From Terriglobia bacterium (GTDB lineage Bacteria > Acidobacteriota > Terriglobia > Bryobacterales > Bryobacteraceae), in contig JAIQFS010000005.1 of assembly GCA_020073145.1 (NCBI GenBank), positions 1 to 64,000 on the forward strand: 64,000 nt of DNA. The letters run 5' to 3'. The position numbers and the translations under genes are program-made. The notes below the pieces were generated by a model. The model ran no database searches. It saw nothing but the letters and a program-made list of their open reading frames with translations, and was not told where the DNA came from. Numbering within the stretch: position 1 is the first letter of the stretch; every line of letters begins with the position of its first letter. Below, one piece after another: positions 18,769 to 24,173 of this stretch.

Positions 18769-18938
18769 CCACCGCGGGATTGCGGGCACGCGTCTGAGCG
18801 GCGCGAGGACCCGATCCAGACAATTTTCTATCGTCTTCCGCGCCCGACGAACCCCGGGGTGGTTGACACCCTTGAGCGACTTGTTTCAATCTATTGGTAT
18901 TCCCGCGAGCGCACTTTCGTCATCCAGACCATAACACT

Positions 18939-20690
18939 ATGAGTCCAAAAGCTACCGGTGCAAAGAAGAGGCCTTCGGGAGCCGGGCTGTTCGCCCTGCT
19001 CCAACCGTATCGGGGGTTGGTCGTCATCCTCGTCGCGCTGACGATCGTCGGGAACGCCCTGACGCTCGTGGTGCCCAAACTCATCTCGCGCGCCATCGAC
19101 GCCTACACGCAGCGGACCTTTGTTCTCTCGACCGTCGTCCTCGAGTTCTTCATCGTCTCGTTCCTGGTGTTCGCTTTGAACTATCTGCAGAACATCACCC
19201 AGACCTACACCTCCGAGCGCGTCGCGCGGGACCTGCGCACGCGTCTGGCCGCCAAGATCGCGACCCAGTCCTACAGCAGCGTGGAGACCCTCACCCCCGC
19301 CAAACTGCTGACCAATCTGACTTCCGACGTGGACGGCGTCAAGATGTTTGTTTCGATGGCGGTGGCCACCATCATCGCCTCGCTGTTCCTGATCGTCGGC
19401 GCGAGCGTGATGCTGCTGACCATCAACTGGCGGCTGGGGCTGAGCGTCCTGGGGGTGGTGCCGGTGGTCGGCGGCACCTTTTTCTTCGCGCTGCGGAAGG
19501 TCCGGGTTCTGTTCAGGCGCGGTCAGGAAGCCATCGACTGGCTGAACCGGGTGATCAATGAGAGCATCCTCGGGGCCACCCTCATCCGCATCCTGAATTC
19601 GCAGCGCTTTGAGGCGGAAAAATTCGCCGCCGCCAACCAGGAATCGCGGGATATCGGACTGGCCATCCTCCGCATCATGTCCGCCATGATCCCGGCCATC
19701 ACTCTGGCCGTCAATTTGGCCACCATCATCATTCTTCTGCTGGGCGGCCGCTTTGTGATTTTCGGCGGCATGACGCTTGGCGATTTCACCGCCTTCAACA
19801 GCTATCTCGCGCTGCTCATCTTTCCCATCATCCTGCTGGGGTTCATGAGTAACATCATGGCGCAGGCGGGCGCTTCCTACATGCGTCTGGGCCTGGTTCT
19901 GACGGCGCCGGAGGTCAAGCAATCCGGCCCGCTCCGGCCCGCTCTTCGCGGCGACCTCGCCATCGATAACGTCTCGCTCGCCTTTGGCGACAAGCAAGCC
20001 CTCAAGAATGTTTCTCTCTCGGTCAAGGGCGGCACCAAAACCGCGGTCATCGGCCCCACCGCCGCCGGAAAGACGCAATTGCTGTACGTGCTGATCGGGC
20101 TGCTGCAGCCGACCTCCGGAACCGTCACCTACGATGGCGAGCGGCTCGACGCCTACGATAAAGAAGCCCTGCACCGCCAGGTCGGATTCGTGTTTCAAGA
20201 CAGTATTCTGTTCAACTTGACGCTCCGCGAGAACATCGCTTTCAGCTCGGACATCCCGGACCAGGATCTGGAAAAAGCGATTGCGGCCGCGGAGTTGCGC
20301 GATTTCATCAAAACGCTGCCGCAGGGCCTCGACACGGTGGTCTCCGAGCGCGGGACCAGCCTTTCCGGCGGCCAGAAGCAGCGCGTGATGCTGGCCCGCG
20401 CGCTGGCGCTCAATCCCAAAGTATTGCTGCTCGACGATTTCACCGCGCGCGTCGATACCACGACCGAGCGCGCGATTCTGCGGAACATCCACGAACAGTA
20501 CCCCGGGATCACCCTGATTTCGGTGACGCAAAAGATCGCATCCGTCGAGAACTACGACCAGATCATCCTTCTGATGGAGGGCGAGATGCTGGCCACCGGA
20601 ACCCACGCGAAGCTGATGGAAACTTCGCCCGAATACGTGCAGATCTACGACTCGCAGCGGAGCACCAATGTCTATGAAGTACAAGCTTGA
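18939..20690 (+). CDS. ABC exporter half-transporter, subunit with degenerate ATP site
   Basis: A 583-residue type IV ABC exporter subunit: six membrane helices in the first 320 residues and a C-terminal nucleotide-binding domain. Walker A GPTAAGKT is at 372-379 and the signature LSGGQ is canonical at 475-479. However, the catalytic Glu after Walker B is Asp (LLLDD, Asp499-Asp500), and the H-loop His is Gln531 (VTQKI). Those changes are the hallmark of the non-hydrolysing half of heterodimeric exporters such as TM287/288. The start is ATG 18939; the open frame extends upstream to 18894 without a convincing start. The next gene overlaps its end by 23 bases and encodes the partner. Confidence 0.9.
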   Translation: MSPKATGAKKRPSGAGLFALLQPYRGLVVILVALTIVGNALTLVVPKLISRAIDAYTQRTFVLSTVVLEFFIVSFLVFALNYLQNITQTYTSERVARDLRTRLAAKIATQSYSSVETLTPAKLLTNLTSDVDGVKMFVSMAVATIIASLFLIVGASVMLLTINWRLGLSVLGVVPVVGGTFFFALRKVRVLFRRGQEAIDWLNRVINESILGATLIRILNSQRFEAEKFAAANQESRDIGLAILRIMSAMIPAITLAVNLATIIILLLGGRFVIFGGMTLGDFTAFNSYLALLIFPIILLGFMSNIMAQAGASYMRLGLVLTAPEVKQSGPLRPALRGDLAIDNVSLAFGDKQALKNVSLSVKGGTKTAVIGPTAAGKTQLLYVLIGLLQPTSGTVTYDGERLDAYDKEALHRQVGFVFQDSILFNLTLRENIAFSSDIPDQDLEKAIAAAELRDFIKTLPQGLDTVVSERGTSLSGGQKQRVMLARALALNPKVLLLDDFTARVDTTTERAILRNIHEQYPGITLISVTQKIASVENYDQIILLMEGEMLATGTHAKLMETSPEYVQIYDSQRSTNVYEVQA

Positions 20691-22431
20691 AACCGCCAAG
20701 GCGTTCGGCGCCAAGCGCTCTCTGCGCGCCGGCGTCAAGCGCTTCGTCCCGTTGATCGTTCCGGAGCGCGCGTACATTGCCGTGGCGGTGGCCGCCATGC
20801 TGGTCAGTTCCGGCGCTACCCTGGTCGGCCCGATGATCGTCGGCCGTGCGGTGGATACCTATATCCGCCTGAAAGACAGCCACGGCCTGCTGCTGTCCGC
20901 GCTGTTGTTGCTGGCGGTGTACCTGGTGGGCATTGTCGGCAGCTATACCCAGATCCTCACCATGGGCGGCGTGGGCCGGCGCGTGCTCTACAGCGTGCGC
21001 AACGTCCTCTTCGCGAAACTGCTGGATCTGCCCCTGGCCTTCTTCACCGAAAACAAGGCGGGCGACTTGATCTCGCGCGTCAACAGCGACACCGATAAAC
21101 TGAACCAGTTTGTGGCCCAGGCCCTGATGCAGTTCGTCAGCAGCCTGTTTCTGATGACGGGCGTGGCGGTGTTTGTGCTCTCGCTCAACTTCCGGCTGGG
21201 AATCGCGGCGCTTCTGCCGGCCATCGGCGTGTTCGCGGTCACCAAGGCCAGCTCGGCCTGGGTGAAACGCCGGAACATGCGCAGCATGCAGACCCTCGGC
21301 GGATTAAGCGCCGAGGTTCAGGAGAGCCTGCAGAATTTCAAAGTGATTGTGGCGTTCAACCGCCTGGATTATTTCCAGCGCAAATTCAAGACCGCCAACG
21401 ACACCAATTACACCGCCTCGGTATCGGCCGGCTATGCCAACAACATTTTCATGCCGATGTATGGGTTTGCGCACAATCTGGCGATGCTGCTGGTGCTGGC
21501 CTACGGCATCACGCTGATTGGAGCGTCGGAAACCACGGCCGGCCTGCTCATTGGATTCCTCCTCTACGTCAACAATTTCTACGGGCCAATGCGGCAACTG
21601 GCCACTGTGTGGTCCTCTTACCAGCTCGCGCTGGCGGCGCTCGACCGCATTTCCGAGGTGCTCGCGCTCGAGTCGGATATGCCGGTGCTGGCCGCGGGGC
21701 CGCCCGAAAACAGCGATGTCCTCGAATTCCGGAAAGTGCACTTCCAATATCCCGGCGGCAAGGAAGTTTTGCACGACATCACGCTCGAGTTGCAGAAAGG
21801 CAGCGTGTACGCCTTGGTCGGCCCGACGGGAGGCGGCAAGACGACCACGGCTTCGCTCATGGCCCGGCTCTATGATCCCACCGCGGGATCGATTCTCCTC
21901 GATGGCCGCGACATCCGGTCGGTGCCACCGGCCGAGCGCGCGCGCAAGATCGGCGTAATTCCGCAGGAGCCCTTCCTCTTCACCGGGACCGTTCGTGACA
22001 ACATCGTCTACGGCAACGAAGACCACGCGAACTGCACGGCCGCGCAGCTCGCCGAAATTTTGGAAGAATCCAATCTCTCGAGCCTGCTCACGCGTTTCTC
22101 CGAAGGCCTGGAGACGAAAGTAACCAGTAGCGGCAGCAGCATCAGCCTGGGCCAAAAGCAGCTGATTGCCTTCATGCGCGCCACCCTGCGAAGCCCCGAG
22201 CTGCTGATCCTCGATGAAGCCACGGCCAACATCGACACCGTGACCGAGCAGCTGCTCGAAGAGATTCTAGCCAAGCTCCCCCCGGAAACCACGAAGGTCA
22301 TCATCGCGCACCGCCTGAACACGATCGACAAGGTAGACCAGATCTTCTTCGTGAACTCAGGCGCGATCGCGCTCGCCGGCTCCATGGAACACGCGCTCGA
22401 AATGCTGCTGCACGAGAAGAGGGCGAGCTAG
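20668..22431 (+). CDS. ABC exporter half-transporter, catalytic subunit
   Basis: A 587-residue exporter subunit with an N-terminal six-helix domain and C-terminal ATPase. Walker A GPTGGGKT at 385-392, Walker B LILDE with catalytic Glu517, and H-loop His548 (AHR) are all intact, while its signature is altered to ISLGQ (492-496). In a head-to-tail dimer with the upstream subunit, this Walker site meets the other subunit's canonical LSGGQ to form the active site, and the altered signature meets the degenerate Walker site. The two genes overlap by 23 bases, so they are translationally coupled. Substrate is unknown; multidrug or lipid export is typical. Confidence 0.9.
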   Translation: MSMKYKLETAKAFGAKRSLRAGVKRFVPLIVPERAYIAVAVAAMLVSSGATLVGPMIVGRAVDTYIRLKDSHGLLLSALLLLAVYLVGIVGSYTQILTMGGVGRRVLYSVRNVLFAKLLDLPLAFFTENKAGDLISRVNSDTDKLNQFVAQALMQFVSSLFLMTGVAVFVLSLNFRLGIAALLPAIGVFAVTKASSAWVKRRNMRSMQTLGGLSAEVQESLQNFKVIVAFNRLDYFQRKFKTANDTNYTASVSAGYANNIFMPMYGFAHNLAMLLVLAYGITLIGASETTAGLLIGFLLYVNNFYGPMRQLATVWSSYQLALAALDRISEVLALESDMPVLAAGPPENSDVLEFRKVHFQYPGGKEVLHDITLELQKGSVYALVGPTGGGKTTTASLMARLYDPTAGSILLDGRDIRSVPPAERARKIGVIPQEPFLFTGTVRDNIVYGNEDHANCTAAQLAEILEESNLSSLLTRFSEGLETKVTSSGSSISLGQKQLIAFMRATLRSPELLILDEATANIDTVTEQLLEEILAKLPPETTKVIIAHRLNTIDKVDQIFFVNSGAIALAGSMEHALEMLLHEKRAS

Positions 22432-23390: not shown

Positions 23391-24173
23391 ATGAAACGCC
23401 ACTGGAACGTTCCCATTTGGGCGGGCTTTGCCCTCGTGATTGCCGCGGTCGCCAGTTACGTACCCGTCTTCGCCGTCTTTCCGGTGACGCGGGATGTTCC
23501 TTGGGTCAATTACCTGCTGTTTCTGGCGGGCGGCTGGTTGCTGGCAGCCGGGCTCAGGCGCGCCTTTCGCGATCCGGAGCACTACCGGGGCAAGATCGCA
23601 GGGTCCATCCTCGGCGGGCTGAGCATCGTGCTGTGCGGGGTCTTCGTCGTCGGCATTCTCTACTTTGGAAAACAAATACCCTCATCGTTGAACGCGCTGC
23701 GGACGGGACAGTCCGCGCCATCGTTCACGCTACGGGACACCGCTGGAAAACCGGTGGCCTCCTCCGAACTCCTGAAGAGCCATCGCGCGCTTCTGCTGGT
23801 CTTCTACCGCGGCTATTGGTGACCGTTCTGCAACTCCGAGTTACGGGGTTTCGAGCAGCACGTTCGCGAATTCCACAACCAGGGCGTCGAAATTGTAGCG
23901 ATCAGCGTCGATTCGCCAGAAGAGTCGCAACGCCTCTGCAAGGAACGGGGGTACAGCTTCCCGTTCCTCTCCGATCCCAAAGCCGAGGTGATTCGTGAGT
24001 ATGGCGTCTTGCACCCAAAGGGCGGCGAAAACGGAGAAGACATCGCGCGGCCGGCCGAGTTCCTGGTGGATGCCACGGGAGTGATCCGTTGGGTGAATTT
24101 GACCGAAGATCTGCGAGTGCGCGCCAGGCCGGAATCGGTACTGGAGGCTATCCAGCGCCTGGGGGCCGGGTGA
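23391..24173 (+). CDS. selenocysteine-containing peroxiredoxin-like membrane protein (UGA read through)
   Basis: One 260-residue protein if the TGA at 23820-23822 is read as selenocysteine (residue 144). The N-terminus has three hydrophobic helices (about 7-29, 41-57, 69-92). A peroxiredoxin/AhpC-TSA thioredoxin-fold domain follows: APSFTLRDTAGKPV, then VFYRGYW-U-PFCNSEL, then VEIVAISVDSPEES, then PFLSDP and PAEFLVDATGVIRWV. Cysteine homologues carry WCPFC at this point, so the UGA replaces the reactive first Cys and leaves the resolving Cys at 147. The frame stays open with full homology for 116 codons after the UGA. The protein should reduce peroxides at the membrane or periplasmic face. 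No selA, selB, selD or tRNA-Sec lies in this window. Without Sec insertion the product would be a truncated 143-residue protein. Confidence 0.85.
23828..23858 (+). promoter_or_regulatory. candidate bacterial SECIS hairpin
   Basis: Directly after the UGA, CTGC (23828-23831) pairs with GCAG (23855-23858), and AACTCC (23832-23837) pairs with GGGGTT (23845-23850, one G-U), closing a 7-base loop GAGTTAC; TCGA bulges on the 3' side. The loop starts 15 bases past the UGA, close to the spacing SelB needs. Pairing was done by eye. Confidence 0.6.

Follow-up and report, generated by a model that had tools for sequence, protein, structure and literature searches.

Selenoproteins with a UxxC motif in an AhpC/TSA domain (Pfam PF00578) are a listed family in three reports (PMC13188914, PMC9312934 and PMC2398784); the class, with UxxC or UxxU, corresponds to the 'Prx-like 1' group of the GOS study (PMC2398784). 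The original prediction for the locus described here, which stated that peroxiredoxin-like proteins containing selenocysteine (Sec) are already known, agrees with these entries (PMC13188914 and PMC2398784). In the class termed 'Prx-like thiol:disulfide oxidoreductase', as tabulated in PMC13188914 and PMC2398784, the same PF00578 domain and the same UxxC motif occur as in the protein analyzed here.

The gene lies in a window of 64,000 nucleotides from a Terriglobia bacterium (the window being the whole stretch of DNA that was analyzed), and its features are collected in Table 1. With a probability of about 0.88, we consider that it encodes a selenoprotein with a UxxC centre and a three-helix membrane anchor.

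Table 1. Coordinates (in the window), strand and supporting observations for the features of the candidate selenoprotein gene
Feature	Position	Strand	Basis
Whole gene	23391..24173	+	260 codons, counting the UGA as Sec; terminal TGA at 24171-24173
First predicted membrane helix region, residues 7-28	23409..23474	+	AlphaFold2 helices 7-21 and 23-28; hydropathy segment
Second predicted helix, residues 38-60, adjoining the conserved RD-PW loop	23502..23570	+	AlphaFold2; below the hydropathy threshold of 1.4
Third predicted membrane helix, residues 68-94	23592..23672	+	AlphaFold2 and hydropathy
AhpC/TSA (thioredoxin-fold) domain, residues 106-234	23706..24092	+	Pfam PF00578; Foldseek matches
UGA codon, very probably for Sec144, first position of UxxC	23820..23822	+	UGA in 32/32 loci including the window
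Cys147 codon, putative Sec partner in UxxC	23829..23831	+	32/32 loci; in the column of the peroxiredoxin peroxidatic Cys
SECIS-type hairpin with a stem of 7 bp and the loop AGUUA (23839-23843)	23832..23850	+	
Pro221 codon, at the TlpA-type proline or peroxiredoxin Arg position	24051..24053	+	Invariant in alignment A2 (13 rows)

Reading frame, membrane domain and active site

From the ATG at 23391 to the terminal TGA, the gene forms a single frame that is interrupted only by the in-frame TGA, and its read-through product of 260 residues contains YRGYW-U-PFCNSELRG, with 116 codons beyond the UGA. The Pfam match to AhpC-TSA extends across the UGA (E = 1.4e-33; score 115.9 bits, cut-off 26), and the frame and this match together bear out the continuous coding sequence that had been predicted. 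In the list of open reading frames (ORFs) beginning with ATG, GTG or TTG and of at least 80 aa, the first half of the gene appeared alone (143 aa, 23391-23822), and no such ORF was found for the second half in the same frame. No NCBIfam model reached its cut-off for the window protein, and therefore an annotation would probably show a truncated protein of 143 residues. Three general NCBIfam models matched 13/13 members, the cut-offs being shown for the first member only. A scan for promoters and terminators gave no promoter-like site and one terminator-like site, which is no more than expected by chance.

The AlphaFold2 model (9 rows, mean pLDDT 82.5) consists of three long helical stretches followed by a thioredoxin-fold domain, and a Kyte-Doolittle scan at 1.4 found the first and third helices but not the second. 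The three-helix N-terminal membrane domain of the original prediction is thus supported by the model, and two of its three helices by hydropathy. Next to the conserved RD-PW loop, where the second helix begins, P37 and W38 are invariant in alignment A2. The N terminus carries a net charge of +1 to +3 in 12/13 rows (the remaining row is masked there); in the 13 rows, the first loop has 0 to +1 and the second loop +2 to +5. When the positive-inside rule is applied to these charges, the N terminus is predicted to lie inside and the catalytic domain to face the periplasm.

We further considered the kind of active site that the UGA codon belongs to. The best Foldseek matches were Bcp, AhpE and other peroxiredoxins, over 156-177 alignment columns among the matches listed. 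The HMM alignments to Bcp and AhpE were ungapped at the site; in these alignments, Sec144 faces the Thr of TxxC (Ser in one case), Cys147 faces the residue that we take to be the peroxidatic Cys, and Pro221 faces the Arg mutated in PDB 4xih, which is titled as an R116A mutant and in which R116 is presumably the active-site Arg of AhpE. The same placement of Sec144 and Pro221 resulted when the protein was aligned with six others from its own genome: the PrxQ-like L033 and L034 have T..C and R, three proteins (two in L032 and one in L036) combine C..C with P, and L031 has the first Cys only, and P. Because Sec144 occupies the Thr or first-Cys position and Pro221 the Arg or TlpA-proline position, these alignments identify a site of thioredoxin/TlpA type in which Sec opens a CxxC-type motif (UPFC). 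In thioredoxins, the first Cys of CxxC is the attacking residue. The claim that the UGA replaces the catalytic Cys of a peroxiredoxin was accordingly imprecise: the peroxidatic position is that of Cys147, and Sec144 is found at the Thr position.

These observations bear on a rival reading, in which the selenoprotein is a genuine peroxidase of the peroxiredoxin type whose Sec attacks peroxide. The best matches in both fold and sequence, namely Bcp/PrxQ, AhpE and other peroxiredoxins, speak for such an activity; however, neither the Thr-x-x-Cys motif (nor TxxU) nor the Arg of canonical peroxiredoxins is kept, since Sec aligns with the Thr and Pro221 stands in the Arg column, with Arg220 one residue away, and we regard a peroxidase of this type as unlikely, while granting it some weight. 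From the fold and the motif, the protein is most likely a periplasm-facing selenenylsulfide (Se-S) oxidoreductase. As such an oxidoreductase, it would be held by three N-terminal membrane helices with its C-terminal thioredoxin-fold domain in the periplasm; Sec144 and Cys147 would form the UxxC redox centre, in which Sec144 would attack a disulfide (alternatively a peroxide or another oxidant), Sec144 and Cys147 would become linked by a Se-S bond, and a partner would then reduce that bond. The only invariant Cys columns of A2 are 144 (Sec) and 147, and because there is no other invariant Cys in the family alignment, the reductant is probably another molecule.

Conservation of the UGA and selection on the downstream part

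A search of genome contigs for related loci returned 19 loci, among which L010-L019 cover most of the query with 42-72% identity in the best segment, and UGA was present at the site in all ten of them. The other nine were mostly shorter matches: L020-L027 carry Cys at the site, and no matching motif was seen there in L028. A search of 100 relatives and the own genome added three further full-length loci (L038-L040), L037 having the sequence of L010. When 396 genomes of the phylum were searched with alignment A2, 34 contained matches at E ≤ 1e-30, and 19 genomes (own included) held the full-length or nearly full-length form with one internal TGA each, with the caveats that a frameshift ahead of the UGA divides the gene in G172 and that the L084 match begins at model position 23. 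The sequence of L016 is masked at its N terminus.

The window, L010-L019, L038-L040 and L079-L096 make up 32 loci of the same kind with 31 distinct sequences (L018 and L090 are identical). On recount, the TGA at the site, the UxxC motif and the lack of any stop in the next 95 codons were found in 32/32 loci. Other stops or frameshifts at or after this place had been named as a check of the prediction; the 31 homologous loci of the same kind all have UGA and no other stop at this codon, and the single sequence of L018 and L090 has a frameshift that precedes the UGA. The first half of that sequence lies partly in another frame, which may be a real lesion or an assembly error. The record of L015 is labelled Betaproteobacteria, and its gene is close to the Acidobacteria loci L013 and L014; the assembly is possibly mislabelled or mixed. 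In the phylum sample, the three-helix UxxC subfamily occurs in at least ten families.

We estimated dN/dS after the UGA by the Nei-Gojobori method and obtained 0.05-0.20 in 8/8 chosen pairs; these values are rough, because dS is near saturation in several pairs (2.45 for the window and L010) and three pairs are supplied by L013, L014 and L015. Purifying selection acts on the part downstream of the UGA, and the absence of decay after the stop, as originally claimed, is confirmed by these ratios together with the stop-free 95 codons.

Termination at the UGA might itself be used, yielding a 143-residue membrane stub at low selenium, with the Sec form made only in the presence of selenium. The UGA does come after the membrane domain, and recoding competes with termination in general, but the codon sits exactly at the active site, both halves are under selection and nothing points to a function of the stub, which makes this reading very improbable. 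A pseudogene or sequencing error, in which a Cys or Trp codon was turned into the stop that interrupts the frame, has a negligible probability and was rejected, given the same UGA in 31 distinct sequences, the open frame beyond it in every locus and the low downstream dN/dS.

Both gene halves were present in 32/32 loci in a comparison of neighbourhoods, and no clearly conserved neighbour gene was seen around these loci within flanks of up to 5 kb (window), 3 kb (L010-L019) or 1.5 kb (remaining loci). The ORF clusters common to many loci were the two halves themselves and ORFs in other frames or on the other strand, mostly in or around the gene's own region. Upstream in the window, at 18894-22431 on the plus strand, the ORF list contains two overlapping ABC-transporter-like ORFs of 598 and 587 aa.

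SECIS-type hairpin and selenocysteine machinery

A conserved SECIS-type hairpin follows the UGA, in agreement with the original prediction, but it starts 9 nt after the UGA with 16 nt between the UGA and the loop, instead of 6 and 15. The folding z-scores in the window were -1.49 (23820-23870), -3.07 (23814-23875) and -2.63 (23823-23863); the window hairpin alone is not decisive, and its conservation in relatives is convincing. RNAalifold applied to 14 aligned sequences gave one helix (columns 13-19 with 25-31) with the loop AGUUR, 16 nt past the UGA. Across these 14 sequences, 96.9% of cells were paired, compared with 21-63% for slid versions of the helix, and two-sided (compensatory) changes were observed in 3/7 pairs, in L012 and L017. 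Codon identity among rows sharing the same residue was 0.80 at U+1 to U+10 versus 0.41 elsewhere (9 versus 136 codons in 13 sequences, P = 6e-5).

We then compared the hairpin score with those of synonymous recodings that preserve the protein, and found p < 0.1 in 41/42 UGA sequences (median 0.01; window 0.025; the sole exception was L101) and in 2/9 Cys homologues. The 42 UGA sequences are related and not independent, and 14 of them lie outside the three-helix set; the stricter motif of this test leaves out L086, L092, L096 and L099 and the repeated sequence L090. The score demands a G within the first two loop bases, which is reportedly a SECIS rule in the bSECISearch work. Without the loop-G rule the test is weaker (window p = 0.063), and with stray motif rows included the mean energy z was -1.7 for UGA sequences versus -0.7 for Cys sequences (P = 0.005). 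An Rfam search of 23700-24000 gave no family match at E ≤ 10.

In a second three-helix group (L089, L091, L093, L094 and L095), the distance from the UGA to the hairpin is about 7-8 nt greater and the loop contains GGU or GGG, and L092 and L096 share the same CTGCAAGGTTTGCAG stretch as this group. It thus appears that the hairpin has shifted relative to a UGA and a protein motif that have kept their place. The family offers naturally occurring SECIS-type hairpins at two distances from one and the same codon, and these are useful for studying the spacing tolerance of SelB.

The check for selA, selB, selD and tRNA-Sec in the genome of the window, as proposed originally, found all four: tRNA-Sec with anticodon TCA (74.2 bits, cut-off 47), SelA (E = 2e-118), SelB (351.9 bits, cut-off 242.25) and SelD (355.9 bits, cut-off 125, with one in-frame UGA). 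This SelD (L074, G000:C68:26523-27446, motif AAGUASK) is probably a selenoprotein too. A second likely selenoprotein of the same genome is L030 (G000:C19:3966-4319, minus strand), whose AhpC/TSA-like stretch contains RSADWUQYCRSQL and precedes a further domain, in a 337-residue frame with one in-frame TGA.

A strong selA match (E ≤ 9.5e-121) was found in 19/19 genomes of the phylum sample with the full-length UGA gene, and selA was over its cut-off in 250/396 genomes overall (hypergeometric P = 1.2e-4, uncorrected for kinship). Of the 11 genomes whose sole UGA match is a more distant one, nine were in the selA list, G238 and G323 (91% and 77% complete) being absent from it. In another set of genomes, selA was over the cut-off in 10/13 of those holding the gene, where G500 is probably G172 again (identical match coordinates). 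The three others, G003 (the same as G492), G493 and G499, have selB, selD and tRNA-Sec all over their cut-offs and may be incomplete genomes; the tRNA-Sec of G003 is marginal (48.0 versus a cut-off of 47) and could be a tRNA-Ser. No selA was found in any of the nine genomes that supplied L020-L028, eight of these loci being Cys forms.

The selenoprotein reading of the original prediction is upheld by the UGA in 32/32 loci, the purifying selection beyond it, the constraint on the hairpin and the machinery in the own genome, and on these lines of evidence the UGA very probably encodes Sec144. SelB carrying Sec-tRNA(UCA) would bind the hairpin directly after the UGA and insert Sec144. A changed genetic code, in which this organism would read UGA as Trp or some other amino acid, has a negligible probability and was rejected, as nothing was found in its favour while the gene itself ends in TGA, the genome has tRNA-Sec(UCA) with the Sec machinery and more distant homologues have Cys at the site.

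Relatives and comparison with known families

Besides L020-L027, Cys at the corresponding site was found in L107 and L111-L113. These four, the Cys matches that were read, use TGC at the site; inspected by eye, their N terminus is short and signal-like and lacks the three-helix domain. They represent the stop-free matches among the 396 genomes, which were in G149, G365, G368 and G279 (an N-terminal piece of G172 was also free of stops), and the three-helix architecture with Cys was never seen in these 396 genomes. A tree of 54 rows, from which L014 (a near-copy) and L090 (a copy) were left out, divided the three-helix rows into two sets, of 23 and 7 rows, separated by other Sec rows and by Cys rows; some forks are weak, so that the architecture may have arisen once or twice. 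One could propose a selenium-only enzyme family in which the membrane domain, with its RD-PW loop, couples the periplasmic Sec centre to a membrane electron donor and is not a plain anchor; we hold this proposal to be doubtful.

Further relatives with UGA were also observed. L041-L044, L046 and L097-L106 form a broad set across the phylum with a UGA-coded UxxC, mostly without the three-helix domain; their loops are of the AGUU or GG type and their spacing from the UGA varies. Two more distant UGA proteins, L099 (G465) and L114 (G473), look multi-helical too; in L114 (G473:C87:71300-73300), where the motif reads YRGDWUKFC, several hydrophobic stretches precede the domain, and the same genome holds L089.

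No membrane-anchored UxxC AhpC/TSA selenoprotein was found in titles and the beginnings of abstracts, which is weak evidence of absence, as supplements and most subscription papers were outside reach. The original description of a new selenoprotein can thus be kept in part: the membrane-anchored subfamily appears to be new, but PF00578 proteins with UxxC are already listed in PMC13188914 and PMC2398784. The subfamily would add a membrane-tethered form to the bacterial selenoproteome, and ordinary gene finders would cut its gene in half.

Compared with the Bcp/PrxQ and AhpE peroxiredoxins, the window protein is alike in sequence and fold (Foldseek E = 3e-12 to 1e-10 among the matches listed), but the Thr and Arg positions of these enzymes hold Sec and Pro, and the matched chains have no counterpart of its membrane domain. 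The ResA/TlpA thiol-disulfide oxidoreductases, which are tethered to the membrane, share the CxxC-type centre and the matching proline (E = 5e-15 with the ResA model); the window protein differs in having Sec for the first Cys and three helices, and it scores 55.7 bits with the ResA model PRK03147, below the cut-off of 170. The SelL-related redox proteins (NCBIfam NF040769) matched 13/13 members at E ≤ 1e-5, whereas the window protein, with one Sec in UxxC, scores 53.8 bits, below the cut-off of 120. Both features of the Prx-like thiol:disulfide oxidoreductases, namely PF00578 (115.9 bits, cut-off 26) and UxxC (32/32 loci), were found, and by these features the window protein appears to fit this known class as a three-helix membrane-anchored subfamily. 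What it adds to the class is the three-helix membrane domain, in a comparison with the class as described in the tables of PMC13188914 and PMC2398784.
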